From assembly GCA_016188625.1 (NCBI GenBank), contig JACPHL010000006.1, positions 1-5,482 of the forward strand: a stretch of 5,482 nucleotides of DNA. The letters run 5' to 3'. Under the pieces are notes generated by a model. The model searched no databases. It was not told the DNA's origin and was given only the letters and a program-made list of their open reading frames with translations. The position numbers and the translations under genes were made by a program. Positions within the stretch are counted from its first letter, which is position 1. The number at the start of each line of letters is the position of its first letter. Source of the stretch: Candidatus Rokuibacteriota bacterium (GTDB lineage: Bacteria > Methylomirabilota > Methylomirabilia > Rokubacteriales > JACPHL01). Positions 1 through 5,482 of the stretch are shown in pieces.

Positions 1-86
1 CCCGGGCCGTGCTGGTCGGCGAGGCCCTGTCCCGGAGCCCGGATCCGGTCGCCAAGCTCCGCGAGTTGGCCCTCCTCGATGGCTAG
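1..86 (+). CDS. trpC: Indole-3-glycerol-phosphate synthase, C-terminal end (partial)
   Basis: Only the last 27 codons are present; the frame begins at base 3 and ends at the TAG at 84-86. The peptide contains AVLVGEAL followed by SRSPDPVAKLREL, which matches the last beta strand and helix of the TrpC TIM barrel (family pattern AVLVGE-L-R--DP---L--L). The enzyme closes the indole ring, converting carboxyphenylaminodeoxyribulose phosphate to indole-3-glycerol phosphate in the cytoplasm. This is the step between TrpF and TrpA, and trpF is the next gene, which supports the call. The catalytic residues lie outside the window. The stop codon is only 5 bp from the edge of an intergenic repeat, so the gene end and the repeat nearly touch. 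Confidence rests on a short but characteristic motif plus gene order. Confidence 0.85.
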   Translation, partial: RAVLVGEALSRSPDPVAKLRELALLDG

Positions 87-92
87 TTACCC

Positions 93-120
93 TGGGAGGG
101 GGGCTCCGCCCCCCTTCCCA
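93..120. repeat. Hairpin B of repeat copy 1
   Basis: The inner stem GGGGGGC (98-104) pairs perfectly with GCCCCCC (108-114) around a 3-nt loop. The outer stem TGGGA (93-97) pairs with TCCCA (116-120), leaving T115 bulged. This gives 12 pairs in all. The outer pair 94:119 is flipped relative to copy 2 (2931:2956), with pairing kept. There is no T-tract on either side, so it does not look like a standard intrinsic terminator. Confidence 0.88.
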
Positions 121-138
121 AACCTCCCCCCAAGGGTT

Positions 139-157
139 GCGCCGGCAAAGCCGGCGC
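139..157. repeat. Hairpin A of repeat copy 1
   Basis: A perfect 8-bp stem, GCGCCGGC (139-146) with GCCGGCGC (150-157), closes a 3-nt loop (AAA on the + strand, TTT in element orientation). The pair 143:153 is flipped relative to copy 2 (2898:2908) while pairing is kept, so the stem rather than its exact sequence is conserved. Confidence 0.9.
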
Positions 158-191
158 GCGAAGTGGACCCTCCATCCGCGAGCCGAGGGTC

Positions 192-195
192 GAGG
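192..195 (+). promoter_or_regulatory. Ribosome binding site of trpF, formed at the repeat edge
   Basis: GAGG lies 5 nt before the trpF ATG and is the only Shine-Dalgarno-like sequence near it. Three of its four bases (192-194) are the terminal bases of repeat copy 1, so the repeat appears to supply the trpF translation signal. Confidence 0.6.
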
Positions 196-200
196 TAGTC

Positions 201-812
201 ATGGTTCGGGTGAAGATCTGCGGGATCACGAACCTGGAGGACGCCCTCCTGGCCGCCGAGGCCGGCGCCGACGCCCTGGGCTTCATCTTCGTCGCGGGGA
301 CTCCCCGCTACGTCGAGCCGGCCCGGGCCCGGGCGATCATCCGCGAGCTCCCCCCCTTCATCTGCCCGGTGGGAGTCTTCTGGGACCATCCGCCCGAGGT
401 CATCCGCGAGGTCGCCGAGGCCTGCGGGCTCGGGGCGCTCCAGCTCCACGGCGACGAGCCGCCCGAGGCGACCGTCGGCTTCCGGCTCCCGGTGATCAAG
501 GCGGTCAAGGTCGCGGGTCCCGATGATCTCGCCCAGCTCGACCGCTACAAGGTCGAGGCCTTCCTCCTCGACAGCCCCGCGCGCTGGAGCGAGGGCTCCC
601 CCCGGCCTTCCATCCCCTGGGAGCTGGCGCGCCAGGCGGCCAGCCGGGGACGGATCGTCCTCTCCGCCGGGCTGACCCCGGACAACGTCGGCGAGGCGAT
701 CCGGATCGCGGCCCCGTACGGGGTGGACGTCAACTCGGGCGTGGAGGCGGCGCCCGGCCGGAAGGACCCGGCCAAGGTGCGCCGCTTCATCGAGGTCGCC
801 CGCCGTGGCTAA
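201..812 (+). CDS. trpF: Phosphoribosylanthranilate isomerase
   Basis: This 203-aa single-domain TIM barrel catalyses the Amadori rearrangement of phosphoribosylanthranilate to carboxyphenylaminodeoxyribulose phosphate, the substrate of TrpC. Visible motifs are KICGITN at residues 5-11 with the catalytic Cys7, LQLHGDE at 80-86, the general-acid Asp in LLD at 122-124, SAGLTPDNV at 155-163, and GVDVNSGVE at 174-182, which with the preceding loop binds phosphate. The length is normal for the family. The ATG start puts the KICGI motif at its usual distance from the N-terminus. One oddity is that the loop after Asp124, usually GG(S/T)G-x-x-FDW, reads [10 protein letters not shown] here, losing the second conserved glycine pair and the Asp of FDW. 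The gene follows the trpC tail across a repeat and overlaps trpB by 8 nt, implying coupled translation. The identity is firm; the loop change could alter kinetics. Confidence 0.96.
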
Positions 813-2025
813 GCGGGCGCGCCTGCCGGACCGCGCCGGGCGCTTCGGCCCCTTCGGCGGGCGGTTCGTCCCCGAGACCCTCATGACCCCGCTGATGGAG
901 CTGGAGCGGGTGTACCTCGGGGCCCGGCGCGACCCGACCTTCCGCCGGGAGCTCCACGCGCTCCTGACGACCTACGCGGGCCGCCCCACCCCGCTGACGC
1001 CCGCCCGCCGCCTCGCCGGCCACCTGGGCGGGGCCGAGATCTCCCTCAAGCGAGAGGACCTCTGCCACACCGGCGCCCACAAGATCAACAACACCCTGGG
1101 GCAGGCCCTCCTGGCGAGCCGGATGGGGAAGCCGAGGATCATCGCCGAGACCGGGGCCGGCCAGCACGGCGTCGCGACGGCCACGGCGGCGGCGCTGCTC
1201 GGGCTCCAGTGCGAGGTCTACATGGGGGAGGAGGACACCCGGCGGCAGGCCCTGAACGTCTTCCGGATGGAGCTCCTGGGCGCCCGGGTGATCCCGGTGA
1301 CCTCCGGGAGCCGGACCCTGAAGGACGCCATGAACGAGGCGCTCCGGGACTGGGTCACCAACATCCGGACCACCTACTACTGCATCGGCTCCACCGCCGG
1401 GCCGCACCCCTACACGATGATGGTGCGCGACTTCCAGGCGGTGATCGGCCGCGAGGCCCGCGCCCAGTTCCTCCGCGCCGCCGGGGTCCTCCCCGACGCG
1501 CTGGTCGCCTGCGTGGGCGGCGGCTCGAACGCCCTGGGGCTCTTCACCGCCTTCCTCGGCGATCCGGTCCGGCTCATCGGGGTCGAGGCGGCCGGGGAGG
1601 GGCTCGAGACCGGCCGCCACGCCGCGACCCTCGCCGCCGGCTCCCCGGGGATCCTCCACGGCAGCCGCTCCTACCTCCTCCAGGACGGCGACGGTCAGGT
1701 CCTGGCCGCCCACTCCGTCGCGCCGGGCCTGGACTACCCCGGGGTCGGCCCCGAGCACAGCTACCTCAAGGAGACCGGGCGGGCCGAGTACGTGACCGTG
1801 ACCGACGGCGAGGCCCTGGAGGCCTTCCGGCTCCTGGCCCGCCTCGAAGGGCTCATCCCGGCCCTGGAGTCGGCCCACGCCGTCGCCTACGCCCTCCGCC
1901 TCGCCCCCGCCCTCGGCCCGGGGCGGCGGCTCCTCGTCTGCCTGTCGGGGCGGGGGGACAAGGATGTCCAGAGCGTCGCCGGCCTGGCGGGCGCGACGGA
2001 CGGAGGGGGCCGTGGGGCGCATTGA
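805..2025 (+). CDS. trpB: Tryptophan synthase beta chain
   Basis: This 406-aa PLP enzyme condenses indole with L-serine to give L-tryptophan, acting in the alpha2-beta2 complex with TrpA. The N-terminal signature [16 protein letters not shown] (12-27) is canonical. The PLP-binding Lys is K93 in HTGAHKINN. The catalytic Glu is E116 in AETGAGQHG. The phosphate-binding loop is GGGSNA (238-243), and SGRGDKD (381-387) contributes to the cofactor ring site. The start is GTG, overlapping the trpF stop (GTGGCTAA), with GAGG 9 nt upstream at 792-795. It leaves only about 11 residues before the conserved GRFGPFGG, as expected, and the next in-frame ATG would delete that motif. The length and motifs fit the standard TrpB1 type that pairs with TrpA, rather than the longer TrpB2. 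The Gly-rich last 15 residues overlap the trpA start and are probably dispensable. Confidence 0.97.
2002..2006 (+). promoter_or_regulatory. Ribosome binding site deciding the trpA start
   Basis: GGAGG, inside a longer GGAGGGGG run, lies 5 nt upstream of the GTG at 2012 and within the 3' end of trpB. It is the best Shine-Dalgarno in the operon. It favours GTG 2012 over the in-frame ATG at 1964. Confidence 0.75.
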
Positions 2026-2821
2026 GGAGACCTTCCACCGCCTCCGCCGGCGGGGGGAGCGGGCCCTGATCCCGTACTTCACCGCCGGGGACCCGGGGCT
2101 CGAGGTGACGCGCCAGCTCGTCGAGGAGGCCGCGGCCCGGGGGGCCGACCTCATCGAGCTGGGGCTGCCGTTCTCGGACCCCCTCGCCGACGGCCCGACC
2201 ATCCAGCGCGCCTCTCAGCGCGCCCTGGCCCAGGGGGCCAGCCTGGCCAAGCTCCTCCCCGTGGTCGCCTCGCTCAGAGGCCGCGTGAGCGCGCCCCTCA
2301 TCCTGATGAGCTACCTGAACCCGCTCCACCGCCACGGTCTCGCCGCGGCGGTCCAGGAGCTCGTCCAGGCCGGCTTCGACGGCCTGATCGTCCCCGACCT
2401 CCCCCCCGAGGAGGGTCGCCCCCTGGACCGGCTGGCGCGCGCGGCCGGCCTCGACCTGATCCCCCTGGTGGCCCCCACCAGCGGGCCGGAACGCCTCCGC
2501 CTCATCGCGCGCCGGGCCCGGGGCTTCCTCTACCTGGTGGCCCTCACCGGGGTGACCGGGGCGCGGGCGGAGCTCCCCCCCGATCTCCTCCGGCAGATCC
2601 GGGAGCTCCGGGCCGTCACCTCGAAGCCGATCTGCGTGGGCTTCGGCCTCTCCACGCCCGAGCACGTCCGGGAGGTGGTCCGCTGGGCCGACGGGGCGAT
2701 CGTCGGGAGCGCCATCGTCCGGCGGATCGAGGAGCTCCAGGGCGACCCGGGCATGGTGGGCAAGATCGGGGGTCTCATCGCCGCCCTCAAGGGCGCGACC
2801 CGGGACGGCGGGCAGGGCTAG
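2012..2821 (+). CDS. trpA: Tryptophan synthase alpha chain
   Basis: This 269-aa TIM barrel cleaves indole-3-glycerol phosphate to indole and glyceraldehyde-3-phosphate, and passes indole through the tunnel to TrpB. The motifs run in order: [11 protein letters not shown] (19-29), [18 protein letters not shown] (48-65), YLNP (101-104), [11 protein letters not shown] (124-134), LTGVTGAR (178-185), [10 protein letters not shown] (210-219) and GAIVGSAIV (228-236). With the GTG start the catalytic acids fall at Glu49 and Asp60, the same numbers as in the E. coli and Salmonella enzyme, which supports this start. An in-frame ATG at 1964 would add 16 residues with no family similarity and lies deep inside trpB. 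The 14-nt overlap with trpB and a strong internal Shine-Dalgarno suggest coupled expression of the two subunits. The stop is followed after 35 bp by repeat copy 2. Confidence 0.97.
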
Positions 2822-2893
2822 AAGCCCGTCCGAGTACACTATGCGGCTCGCGCGTTCTCGACCCTCGGCACACGGATGGTTGGTCCGCTCCGA

Positions 2894-2912
2894 GCGCGGG
2901 CTTTGCCCGCGC
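2894..2912. repeat. Hairpin A of repeat copy 2
   Basis: A perfect 8-bp stem, GCGCGGGC (2894-2901) with GCCCGCGC (2905-2912), closes a TTT loop. Relative to copy 1 the fifth pair is G:C instead of C:G, a compensatory double change. Confidence 0.9.
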
Positions 2913-2929
2913 ACCCTTGGGGGGAGGTT

Positions 2930-2957
2930 TCGGAAGGGGGGCGGAGCCCCCCTCCGA
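2930..2957. repeat. Hairpin B of repeat copy 2
   Basis: The inner stem GGGGGGC (2936-2942) pairs with GCCCCCC (2946-2952) around a GGA loop. The outer stem TCGGA (2930-2934) pairs with TCCGA (2953-2957), leaving A2935 bulged. The pair 2931:2956 is C:G where copy 1 has G:C. No T-tract follows. Confidence 0.88.
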
Positions 2958-2969
2958 GACAGTTAGCCG

Positions 2970-3830
2970 ATGGCCTGGTGGTTCCGCCGGAGGGAGGGGG
3001 AGGGGCGCTCCCGGAAGGTGGTCATCGCCGAGGGGCTCTGGATCAAGTGCGAGGCCTGCCGGGAGATCGTCTACCGGGCCGAGGTCGAGCGGAACGCCCG
3101 GACCTGTCCCAAGTGCCGCGCCCCCTTCCGGATCGGCGCCCGCGAGCGCCTGGAGCTGCTCCTCGACCCCGGGAGCTTCGAGGAGCGGGATGCCGGGCTC
3201 CGCTCACAGGACCCCCTGGGCTTCAAGGACACCCGCCGCTACCGCGACCGCCTCAGGGCGGCCAGGGAGAAGACCGGGCAGGAGGAGGCGGTCGTCTCCG
3301 GGACGGGCCGGATCGAGGGGCACCAGATCGCCATCTGCGTCTTCGAGTTCGCCTTCATGGGGGGGAGCATGGCCTCGGCGGTGGGGGAGAAGGTCACCCG
3401 GGCCGTCGAGTTTGCGGCCCGGAAGCGCCTCCCCCTCGTCATCGTCAGCTGCTCGGGCGGGGCCCGGATGCAGGAGGGGATCCTCTCCCTCATGCAGATG
3501 GCCAAGACCGCCGCGGCCCTCCACCGGCTGGCGGAGGAGCGGGTCCCGTACATCGCGGTGCTCACCGACCCGACCACGGGCGGGGTCATGGCGAGCTTCG
3601 CCTCCCTCGGCGACATCATCGTCGCCGAGCCGAAGGCCCTCATCGGCTTCGCCGGCCCCCGCGTCATCGCCGAAACGATCCGCCAGCCCCTCCCCGACGG
3701 GTTCCAGCGCTCGGAGTTCCTGCTCGAGCACGGGATGGTGGACCTGGTCACGGAGCGCAAGGAGCTCCGCGAGCTCCTCCGCCGCATCCTGGCCTTCTTC
3801 GCCGAGCCCTCCGCCCTCCCGCTCCCCTGA
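2970..3830 (+). CDS. accD: Acetyl-CoA carboxylase carboxyltransferase subunit beta
   Basis: This 286-aa subunit forms the alpha2-beta2 carboxyltransferase with AccA. It transfers the carboxyl group from carboxybiotin on AccB to acetyl-CoA, making malonyl-CoA for fatty acid synthesis. The N-terminal zinc ribbon is complete: C27-x2-C30 and C46-x2-C49. The crotonase-like core follows, with MGGSMASAVGEK (130-141), SCSGGARMQEG (160-170), LTDPTTGGVMASFASLGD (198-215), IGFAGPRVIAETI (225-237) and LPDGFQRSEFLLEHGMVD (241-258). All are typical of bacterial AccD, and the length is normal. The ATG is the first possible start because an in-frame TAG (2964-2966) lies just upstream, and the start MAWWFRR matches family N-termini. 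No good Shine-Dalgarno precedes it; the nearest is a weak GAG at the edge of repeat copy 2. It probably shares a transcript with folC, 1 nt downstream. Confidence 0.97.
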   Translation: MAWWFRRREGEGRSRKVVIAEGLWIKCEACREIVYRAEVERNARTCPKCRAPFRIGARERLELLLDPGSFEERDAGLRSQDPLGFKDTRRYRDRLRAAREKTGQEEAVVSGTGRIEGHQIAICVFEFAFMGGSMASAVGEKVTRAVEFAARKRLPLVIVSCSGGARMQEGILSLMQMAKTAAALHRLAEERVPYIAVLTDPTTGGVMASFASLGDIIVAEPKALIGFAGPRVIAETIRQPLPDGFQRSEFLLEHGMVDLVTERKELRELLRRILAFFAEPSALPLP

Positions 3831-3831
3831 G

Positions 3832-5112
3832 ATGCCCGGCCGCGAGGCCCTCGACCGCCTCCTGGGCCTCCAGCGCTTCGGGATCCAGCCGGGGCTGGAG
3901 CGGATCCGCGCCCTCCTCGAACCCCTCGGCCACCCCGAGGCCCGGATGGCGATCCTCCACGTGACCGGGACCAACGGGAAGGGCTCCGTCGCCGCCATCG
4001 CCGCGGCGATCCTCCGGGCCGCGGGCCACCGGGTCGGGCTCTACACCTCCCCCCACCTCCTCGACTTCCGGGAGCGGATCGAGATCGACGGCCGGCCGAT
4101 CCCCGACACGGACCTGCTCCGTCACCTGGAGCGGCTGCTCCCGCTCCTGGACCGGGTCGGCTCGACCTTCTTCGAGGCCTCCACGGCCCTGGCGCTCCTG
4201 GCCTTCGCCGAGGCCGGGGTCCGGCTCGCCGTCCTCGAGGTCGGGATGGGGGGGCGGTGGGACGCGACCAACGTCGGGACCCCGGTGGTCTCGGTGATCA
4301 CCCGGATCGACTACGACCACGAGGCCTACCTCGGCGACACCCTCCCGGCCATCGCCCGGGAGAAGGCGGCGATCATCCGCGGGGGGACGGCCCTCTCGGC
4401 GCGGCAGGCGCCCGAGGTCGCTGCGGTCATCGCCGCCCGCTGCCAGGCGGTGGGGGTCCCGCTCCTGGTCGAGGGGCGCGAGCTCTCGGTCGAGGTCGTC
4501 CGGAGCGACCTCGGCGGCCAGCGCCTCCACCTGGCGGGTCCGGGCTGGGCGCACCGGGATGTCGAGCTCGCCCTGCTCGGGACCTTCCAGCCCGCCAACG
4601 CCTGCCTGGCCGTCGGGGCTGCCCACCTCCTGGACCGGGCCGGCTTCCCCGTGCCCGAGCCGGCCCTCCGCGCCGGCCTGGCCGGGGTCCGCTGGCCGGG
4701 GCGCTTCGAGATCGTCCGGAAGGCCCCCTGGCTGGTGCTCGACAGCGCCCACAACCCCGGGGGGGCGCGGGCCCTCGCCGCCTCGCTCCGCCACTACTTC
4801 CCCGACGCCCGCCGAACGCTCGTCGTCGGGATCTCGGCCGACAAGGACAAGGCCGGGATCCTGGAGGCCCTCGCCCCCCTGGCCGCCCGGGTCCTCCTCG
4901 TCGCCTCCTCGAGCCCCAGGGCCACCCCGCCGGAGGAGATGGCCCGCCTGCTCCCGCCCCTCGAGGCCGAGGTGGCCTGCCTCCCGACCGTCGGTCAGGC
5001 CCTGGAGCTGGCCCTGGCCGATCCGGGGGCGGAGGTGGTCTGCGTGACGGGCTCGATCTTCCTCGTCGGCGATCTCCTCCGGTGGCTGGGGTCGGCCGGG
5101 CCGGCTCCCTGA
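3832..5112 (+). CDS. folC: Dihydrofolate synthase / folylpolyglutamate synthase
   Basis: This 426-aa Mur-ligase-type ATP-dependent enzyme adds L-glutamate to dihydropteroate and/or to reduced folates. Motifs: P-loop TGTNGKGS (45-52), TSPHLLDFRERI (72-83), FFEASTALAL (113-122), EVGMGGRWDATN (136-147), and ITRIDYDH...LGDTLPAIAREKAAII (156-182) with K178, expected to be the lysine carbamylated in this family. Then follow TFQPANA (251-257), WPGRFE (288-293) and LDSAHNPGG (303-311) at the entry to the C-terminal glutamate-binding domain. Length is normal. Small departures from the usual pattern are EKAAI for EKAGI and DSAHNP for the commoner DGAHNP, neither expected to be inactivating. Motifs alone do not settle whether it is bifunctional. 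The ATG lies 1 nt after the accD TGA, and the upstream 20 nt are pyrimidine-rich with no Shine-Dalgarno, suggesting translation by reinitiation after accD. Confidence 0.96.
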   Translation: MPGREALDRLLGLQRFGIQPGLERIRALLEPLGHPEARMAILHVTGTNGKGSVAAIAAAILRAAGHRVGLYTSPHLLDFRERIEIDGRPIPDTDLLRHLERLLPLLDRVGSTFFEASTALALLAFAEAGVRLAVLEVGMGGRWDATNVGTPVVSVITRIDYDHEAYLGDTLPAIAREKAAIIRGGTALSARQAPEVAAVIAARCQAVGVPLLVEGRELSVEVVRSDLGGQRLHLAGPGWAHRDVELALLGTFQPANACLAVGAAHLLDRAGFPVPEPALRAGLAGVRWPGRFEIVRKAPWLVLDSAHNPGGARALAASLRHYFPDARRTLVVGISADKDKAGILEALAPLAARVLLVASSSPRATPPEEMARLLPPLEAEVACLPTVGQALELALADPGAEVVCVTGSIFLVGDLLRWLGSAGPAP

Positions 5113-5118
5113 GCCTGG

Positions 5119-5145
5119 CCGGGAGCCCGAGTTCGGGGGTCCCGG
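5119..5145 (+). terminator. Possible terminator hairpin after folC
   Basis: CCGGGA (5119-5124) pairs with TCCCGG (5140-5145), and inside it CCCG (5126-5129) pairs with CGGG (5134-5137) around an AGTT loop. It begins 6 bp after the folC stop. The downstream tract is only mildly T-rich (CTTCTGTT at 5154-5161), so it is not a canonical intrinsic terminator. Position and structure make it the best candidate for ending the trp-accD-folC transcript. Confidence 0.45.
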
Positions 5146-5165
5146 GAACACGCCTTCTGTTGAGC

Positions 5166-5180
5166 CCCGGCGGGACCGGG
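5166..5180 (+). other. Second small hairpin in the folC downstream spacer
   Basis: CCCGG (5166-5170) and CCGGG (5176-5180) form a 5-bp stem with a 5-nt loop, just before the AT-rich promoter region. It could assist termination or be chance in GC-rich DNA. Confidence 0.25.
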
Positions 5181-5203
5181 CCAAATGCATGAGAAATTTC
5201 CCA

Positions 5204-5231
5204 TTGACAAGGTGGTGGCGACTCGTATAAG
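5204..5231 (+). promoter_or_regulatory. Sigma70-type promoter for the Tat-signal gene
   Basis: A perfect -35 hexamer, TTGACA (5204-5209), is followed after 16 nt by TATAAG (5226-5231), five of six matches to TATAAT. The upstream stretch 5183-5203 is unusually AT-rich for this window and contains short palindromes (ATGCAT at 5185-5190 and GAAATTTC at 5193-5200) that could act as UP-element or operator sequence; that role is inference. Transcription would start near 5238, leaving a leader of about 50 nt before the ATG at 5289. Confidence 0.82.
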
Positions 5232-5276
5232 TAGGAGGCGGAATATCGGGTCTCCTTTCTTCACCGGTCTCACCGA

Positions 5277-5283
5277 GGGAGGG
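5277..5283 (+). promoter_or_regulatory. Strong ribosome binding site of the Tat-signal gene
   Basis: GGGAGGG lies 5 nt before ATG 5289 and fixes that start. The strong promoter plus strong site suggest high expression of the downstream protein. Confidence 0.75.
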
Positions 5284-5288
5284 TCACT

Positions 5289-5482
5289 ATGGGTGAAGTC
5301 ATTCGCCGTGAGTTTCTGAACCGGTTGGGCGTCACCGTGGGCGGCGCGGCCCTGGGGGCGGCGGGGTATGTCGCTGGCCGGGCCCAGGCGGAGGCCGCGG
5401 AGCCGCCCAAGGGGAAGATCCCCGACACCCCCTACAAGACGGGCCACATGACCTTCTTCACCGGGCCCGCCGCGGTGCTCGG
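5289..5482 (+). CDS. Tat-exported probable ABC transporter substrate-binding protein (N-terminal part)
   Basis: Only the first 64 codons and two bases are in the window. The N-terminus carries a twin-arginine signal: IRREFLNR with R6-R7, then a small-residue hydrophobic core (about residues 13-30), and an Ala-rich cleavage region with likely cuts after A34 (AQA) or A36 (AEA). It should therefore be exported folded across the inner membrane. The mature start, from about residue 48, reads PYKTGHMTFFTGPAAVLG. This resembles the first beta strand and ligand loop of type I periplasmic binding proteins of the branched-chain amino acid (LivJ-like) family, where a pattern such as K-G---P-TGP-A--G is usual. 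The substrate cannot be inferred. It has its own promoter and is not part of the trp operon. Another Tat-dependent periplasmic protein remains possible, because most of the gene is missing. Confidence 0.6.
   Translation, partial: MGEVIRREFLNRLGVTVGGAALGAAGYVAGRAQAEAAEPPKGKIPDTPYKTGHMTFFTGPAAVL

Follow-up and report, generated by a model that had tools for sequence, protein, structure and literature searches.

Repetitive extragenic palindromic sequences (REPs) prefer the 3′ flanks of tandem and convergent genes, where a GTAG terminus often supplies a TAG stop codon, and REPs of the CGTC type have no dedicated transposase (PMC3733652). TnpAREP, which cuts at CT or CA, depends on a GTAG tag together with an unpaired bulge (PMC8266576). 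Hairpins known as ribosome termination structures (RTSs), centred ~5 nt after stop codons, block re-initiation in other bacteria (PMC7518266). Here we analyse a repeat that lies next to stop codons in a 5,482-nt stretch of DNA (the window; contig JACPHL010000006.1, positions 1 to 5,482) from a metagenome-assembled genome (MAG) of Candidatus Rokubacteria, a soil or groundwater bacterium (the host genome, G000; 2.6 Mb, 84% complete). Two inverted copies of the repeat bracket trpF–trpB–trpA. The best reading is that they belong to a real, new and order-specific family of palindromic elements akin to REPs and to miniature inverted-repeat transposable elements (MITEs). We put at roughly 0.6 the probability that the repeats are a ~141-bp non-autonomous mobile DNA element, specific to Rokubacteria, moved in trans and following a CTAG/stop-codon insertion rule.

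A structured repeat family in Rokubacteria

The reverse complement of bases 92–194 aligns with 2857–2958 over 103 columns, with 11 substitutions and one gap, as a preliminary description of the window had reported. The local alignment scores 144, the best score anywhere else in the window being 29, and a separate repeat search also found the inverted pair, with 96% complementarity over a 46-bp hairpin half. These scores, together with the reversed-pattern controls given below, rule out chance GC-richness. The matching 103 bp therefore stood, but they proved to be only part of the repeat, since copy 2 is longer than had been described: it occupies 2822–2962 on the forward strand as a full-length element (5′ AAGCCCGTCCGAG ... 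CCTCCGAGACAG 3′; model positions 1–148) and fills the trpA–accD gap. Copy 1 (87–194, reverse strand) lies in the trpC–trpF gap, opposite to the genes; it is without the canonical 5′ module and belongs to a subfamily with a TGGGA stem, together with L002 and L003.

Copies are dispersed through the host genome. BLAST with copy 1 found 43 places, and a covariance model built from 33 copies gave 143 matches in the 2.6 Mb, a density of ~1 copy per 18 kb. The 17-bp 3′ hairpin, with at most one mismatch, had 51 forward matches in the same genome, whereas the reversed-pattern control gave 1 and 5. A 39-bp core is matched exactly at 29 loci in a set of 84,980 species genomes of bacteria and archaea, all 29 in Candidatus Rokubacteria/Rokuibacteriota, and core identity between genera reaches 97%. 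Most of 58 relatives of the same order carry the element, with hundreds of copies among them. A full copy, searched as DNA, matches almost every genome of the order; outside the order but within the class, it matches one of ~36. The repeats are thus a mobile or amplified non-coding family, as had been proposed, and copies throughout the genome and in relatives rule out a local inverted duplication. Rfam gave no match above its gathering threshold, only a sub-threshold chance match to mir-3547; phage, plasmid and IMG/VR viral contig collections held no match to the element, and nothing relevant was found in the open-access literature on Rokubacteria repeats.

The element has three hairpins and can be written CTAG/GAGCCCGTCCGAG...GGGGGGCggaGCCCCCCTCCGAG-NNNN/CTAG, the slashes marking its borders. 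In the 5′ to 3′ order of copy 2, a GAGCCCGTCCGAGTAACGC module is followed by a GCGGA/TCCGC hairpin, a GCGCSGGC-TTT-GCCSGCGC hairpin, the linker TTGGGGGGAGG and a 3′ hairpin with the consensus TCGGA(A)GGGGGGC-gga-GCCCCCCTCCGA, after which come ~4 variable nucleotides. All of these parts lie on the forward strand in copy 2: hairpin 1 at 2873–2887, reading CGGA/TCCG here and GCGGA/TCCGC in most copies; hairpin 2 at 2894–2912 (GCGCGGGC-TTT-GCCCGCGC); the conserved linker (TT)GGGGGGAGGTT at 2918–2929, joining hairpins 2 and 3; hairpin 3, the 3′ hairpin, at 2930–2957 (TCGGA-A(bulge)-GGGGGGC-GGA-GCCCCCC-TCCGA); and the variable ~4-nt spacer (ACAG) at 2959–2962, between the 3′ hairpin and a YTAR flank.

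Hairpins 2 and 3 covary, with 19 two-sided compensatory cells against 0 of 500 shuffles and 0–4 in slid controls; one pair of hairpin 2 alternates between G–C and C–G among the copies (14 versus 18 of 33). Mispairs in the stems are G–U in 9 cases and A–C in 12. Because there is no G–U bias, the stems give no specific sign of pairing at the RNA level, and we rejected an RNA-level structure for want of a wobble excess. An intrinsic terminator was also rejected, as no U-tract follows the hairpin and both orientations are used.

At least two further element bodies of the host genome carry the 3′ hairpin, and bodies look modular around this common 3′ end. Body 'B' (GGGGGGAGGCAGGCCCCGAAGCC...GGGCCGTCGGAA; L032, L044, L045, L047, L048, L057 and L059) ends in that hairpin too and likewise lies next to stops. 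Body 'C' (GGAGGGGCCCCGCCCGGCGAGCC...GGAGCGTGTGGAGCGAGGGG; L034, L039, L053, L058 and L060) also carries the common hairpin, and upstream of some copies its reverse complement stands as a repeat of its own (a 32-bp repeat in L053). Head-to-tail pairs of elements with a period of ~97 bp are present on contigs 212, 239 and 250. The same full-length form is found in other families, for example in G026.

CTAG flanks and stop codons

We examined gene context in ~430 kb of host loci, in which genes were called with a codon model of our own that had been trained on those loci and the window and checked on the window genes only. Of 82 copies, 56 have tandem neighbours, 20 have convergent and 2 have divergent ones, and 3 overlap with a called gene; both orientations relative to the genes are used. 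Where a gene points at the 3′ hairpin from beyond, its stop codon is typically 2–5 nt away, with a mode of 4. This spacing arises from the tetranucleotides that flank the element, since full-length copies read CTAG/GAGCC...CCGAG-NNNN/CTAG. Both copies in the window have such flanks. At the 5′ end of copy 2, CTAG (2818–2821) includes the trpA TAG stop (2819–2821), and TTAG (2963–2966) follows its 3′ end; the 3′ end of copy 1 abuts CTAG (83–86), which includes the TAG stop (84–86) of the upstream trpC-like gene, and its 5′ end abuts GTAG (195–198; CTAC on the element strand, read from the sequence). The preliminary description had seen no target duplications, a view that these CTAG-type flanks do not bear out.

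The flanks hold whatever the gene context. On the 3′ side of 25 copies the downstream gene starts, so that no stop codon is expected there; CTAG or a form with one mismatch nevertheless stands at exactly offset 4 in 14 of them (6 exact), against at most 1 at any other offset. On the 5′ side, again where no stop is expected, 12 of 23 copies have CTAG or a one-mismatch form (5 exact). The chance rate of a CTAG-type flank is 5% (binomial p below 1e-9). In the 150 matches listed from 26 other genomes, CTAG stands 4 nt from CCCCCCTCCGAG in 83 cases, 3 nt in 34, 5 nt in 13 and 8–14 nt in none.

CTAG itself is depleted: 163 occurrences compare with a Markov expectation of ~522, a count that includes sites adjoining copies. 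Of 134 distinct CTAG sites, likewise including those next to copies, stops account for 55 and gene interiors for only 16. Stop codons that abut copies are TAA or TAG in 39 cases and TGA in 9 (39/48), against 129 and 184 elsewhere (129/313; p = 2e-7). As CTAG is rare except at stops, we conclude that copies land on TAG and TAA stop codons.

Empty sites and amplification

The window contains trpF (201–812), trpB (805–2025), trpA (2012–2821), accD (2970–3830) and folC (3832–5112), preceded by the end of an open reading frame (ORF) that we judged TrpC-like by eye, on the strength of its C-terminus (AVLVGEALSRSPDPVAKLRELALLDG) and of relatives. Between trpC and folC only the trpC–trpF and trpA–accD gaps exceed 20 bp, and each holds one repeat copy, so that the gene map agrees with the earlier placement of the repeats at the two ends of trpFBA. 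The order trpF–trpB–trpA–accD is kept across the bacterial order. Among 36 relatives in which trpA and accD could both be reached, roughly half have a spacing of −4 to 7 bp between them. About a dozen others hold in that gap the element or one related to it, in every case with the same orientation.

Comparison of these orthologous loci, as the preliminary description had advised, defines an insertion. Within genus g11, G026 reads ...TAG-(element)-GTAG-CCATGG where G054 reads TAG-CC-ATGG. In the window, CTAG-(copy 2)-TTAG-CCGATGG, with CCG followed by the accD ATG at 2970, corresponds to CTAG-CC-ATGG in relatives with an empty site. Filled sites thus have one extra copy of TAG. Copy number also differs strongly within genera: G026 has at least 53 copies and its sisters in g11 have 0, 1, 1 and 16, and three genomes of genus g22 have 50, at least 53 and 0. 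Empty orthologous trpA–accD junctions and these large differences together show gain by insertion, the behaviour of an amplifying mobile element.

These data also bear on the idea that copies are kept for a function, in which hairpins after stop codons insulate translation in the manner of an RTS, terminate or shield transcripts, or adjust the expression of trp and accD. The strong hairpin of antisense copies begins ~4 nt after the stop, much as an RTS is a stable hairpin a few nucleotides beyond a stop codon (PMC7518266), and the stems are conserved and covarying, with a core that reaches 97% identity between genera. However, RTSs are unrelated sequences shaped by selection, whereas the element consists of homologous dispersed copies in both orientations. 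Orthologous junctions do without it in relatives, copy number ranges from 0 to at least 53 within one genus, no U-tract follows the hairpin, and CTAG persists at the opposite end of the element, away from any expected stop. We therefore regard retention for function as unlikely. An RTS-like effect of the post-stop hairpin is possible as a by-product for antisense copies such as copy 1.

Other order members differ at the trp locus. In some Rokubacteriales (L099, L102, L109 and L110) the trpC–trpF gap has different ~50-bp tandem repeats upstream of trpF, which end in a GGGGGGGGCGTCTCGCCCCCCCC hairpin just before the start codon. In G025 (L080), a 248-bp stretch with an apparent small ORF (ATGACTGAAATGTTCAAAGCC...) parts trpB and trpA, which overlap in most relatives.

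Candidate mechanisms of mobilization

We propose that one or both folded ends of the element, the 3′ hairpin above all, would be read by a trans-acting enzyme. This enzyme would join the element to CTAG (YTAR) as its target, so that a CTAG ends up on either side. With CTAG strongly avoided in these GC-rich genomes except at TAG stops, insertions would fall just after stop codons. Such sites may be harmless, whether in tight operons such as trpCFBA–accD or between convergent genes. We infer transposition by such a hairpin-reading enzyme, and the role of the element is probably neutral or selfish rather than regulatory. Given that the 4-nt spacer varies and that the termini are not inverted, an HUH-like hairpin-reading enzyme is a better match than a DDE enzyme.

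Several results count against this interpretation. In the host genome (84% complete), Y1_Tnp (PF01797; REP-associated tyrosine transposase, RAYT), DDE_Tnp_1, DDE_5 and RVT_1 all have 0 matches; the RAYT partner that the preliminary description had suggested looking for was thus not found there. Across 40 genomes, copy number is tracked by none of the tested transposase or reverse transcriptase families, and none of the DDE and Y1 loci examined in relatives carries the hairpin or such ends. The left and right 4-mers of a copy are no more often identical than shuffled pairs beyond the common CTAG bias (p ~0.05). Many main-family copies are without the canonical 5′ end. Finally, a minority of copies have direct duplications of 12–46 bp, which a fixed 4-bp duplication does not predict.

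A RAYT (TnpA-REP) or another transposase like that of IS200/IS605 might have moved the element as a REP, or as a bacterial interspersed mosaic element (BIME), by reading the hairpin and cutting at the CT of CTAG, and have since been lost. Like GTAG and CGTC REPs and BIMEs, the copies are short GC-rich palindromes, numerous and intergenic, with 76 of 82 in tandem or convergent settings near ORF 3′ ends, as for published REPs, and with termini that abut or supply stop codons. The GC-rich hairpin is bulged, a GGAG motif lies just 5′ of the 3′ hairpin, and the spacer to CT(AG) is short and constant. The likeness to CGTC REPs extends to having no dedicated transposase. Unlike REPs, however, the element is a ~141-bp unit of three hairpins whose two ends are both defined and both bordered by CTAG. 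The foot of the stem bears neither a GTAG nor a CGTC tag: the 3′ stem is preceded by GGAGG(TT/CT) and followed, at a distance of 4 nt, by CTAG. Y1_Tnp is present in only 11 of 59 relatives and is flanked by the hairpin in none, and long duplications are unexpected from single-strand transposase chemistry. This origin is possible, although we consider it doubtful, and as the copies lack the defining tag and no RAYT was found in the host genome we do not file the element as a REP. A link to palindrome-associated elements (PATEs) derived from IS200/IS605 is conceivable: these share a subterminal hairpin, a fixed short spacer, a junction tetranucleotide and the lack of terminal inverted repeats, whereas our element has no Y1 transposase in its genome, and a few of its copies are flanked by long duplications.

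A classical MITE of a DDE insertion sequence (IS) would also leave 4-bp CTAG/YTAR duplications, if it derived from an IS5/IS427-like or IS701-like IS, which we take to have such a target preference. The non-coding character and 100–150-bp size, the 4-bp CTAG at both ends, the defined ends of full-length copies, the empty sites in relatives and the extra TAG at filled sites would all suit a DDE MITE. Against this, the element ends, when compared, are not inverted, in agreement with the preliminary description (GAGCCCGTCC versus the reverse complement GTGCCTCGGA; the ends of the G026 element match less), and the element varies most in the nucleotides that adjoin the duplication at its 3′ end, although a DDE enzyme requires fixed tips. 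Many high-copy relatives, like the host, have neither DDE_Tnp_1 nor DDE_5. A MITE of this kind is improbable in our judgement, and since neither inverted termini nor a partner IS was found we do not file the element as one.

The long duplications could instead reflect copying from RNA or primed at a nick, by target-primed reverse transcription like that of short interspersed nuclear elements (SINEs) or by template switching, with the 3′ end joined at a nick just after the stop and the other nick variable. Perfect duplications measure 34 bp at L210 (~5990–6160), where the unit ends exactly with the TGA stop of the upstream gene, 46 bp around the element at L196 (reverse strand), 21 bp in host contig C59 (L150), 14 bp at L066 and 12 bp at L012; L197 (a queA–tgt-like junction, named by eye from the sequence) and L303 have diverged gene-end duplications. 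The right copy starts 3–6 nt after the 3′ hairpin, whereas the left end and the 5′ filler vary, in keeping with a constant 3′ end and variable 5′ ends. An anchored score of 11 was reached by 10 of 133 copies, against ~0.9 per offset in shuffled pairs, a few among the ten being tandem elements or repeats of another kind, not target duplications. On the other side, RVT_1 is absent from the host and 8 other high-copy genomes, canonical full-length copies have CTAG alone in common with no significant duplication beyond it, and stems show no excess of G–U over A–C mispairs. We consider nick-primed copying very unlikely.

In summary, RAYT, DDE_Tnp_1, DDE_5 and RVT_1 were each rejected as partners, on account of their absence from the 84%-complete genome, the lack of correlation with copy number and, for DDE and Y1 loci, the lack of linkage to the hairpin. 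An order-wide short interspersed element could also insert at stop codons without any known type of transposase, through an unrecognised conserved rokubacterial enzyme, with CTAG avoidance making stops a safe harbour and possibly with nick-primed copying that leaves variable duplications; this too we hold improbable. A trans-mobilized DNA element with a CTAG/stop-codon rule remains our preferred account.

Other features of the window and contigs

Downstream of folC, a sigma-70-like promoter (TTGACA, 16 nt, TATAAG; 5204–5231) was recognised by eye ahead of an ORF in 5289–5482, which begins MGEVIRREFLNRLG, a twin-arginine-like signal by eye. Contigs C58, C281 and C330 begin or end inside copies of the element. 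The start of contig C70 (L042:1–32) is Illumina adapter-like sequence (ACACTCTTTCCC...GCTCTTCCGATCT) fused to an element copy, an assembly residue.

Significance

Rokubacteria are abundant and uncultured, and a structured mobile repeat at their operon junctions bears on gene expression, on annotation and on the assembly of MAGs. Why small mobile repeats cluster at stop codons in GC-rich genomes may be explained by the CTAG rule, in a way that can be tested. Conservation of the element across genera without a recognised transposase points to an unrecognised mobilizer.

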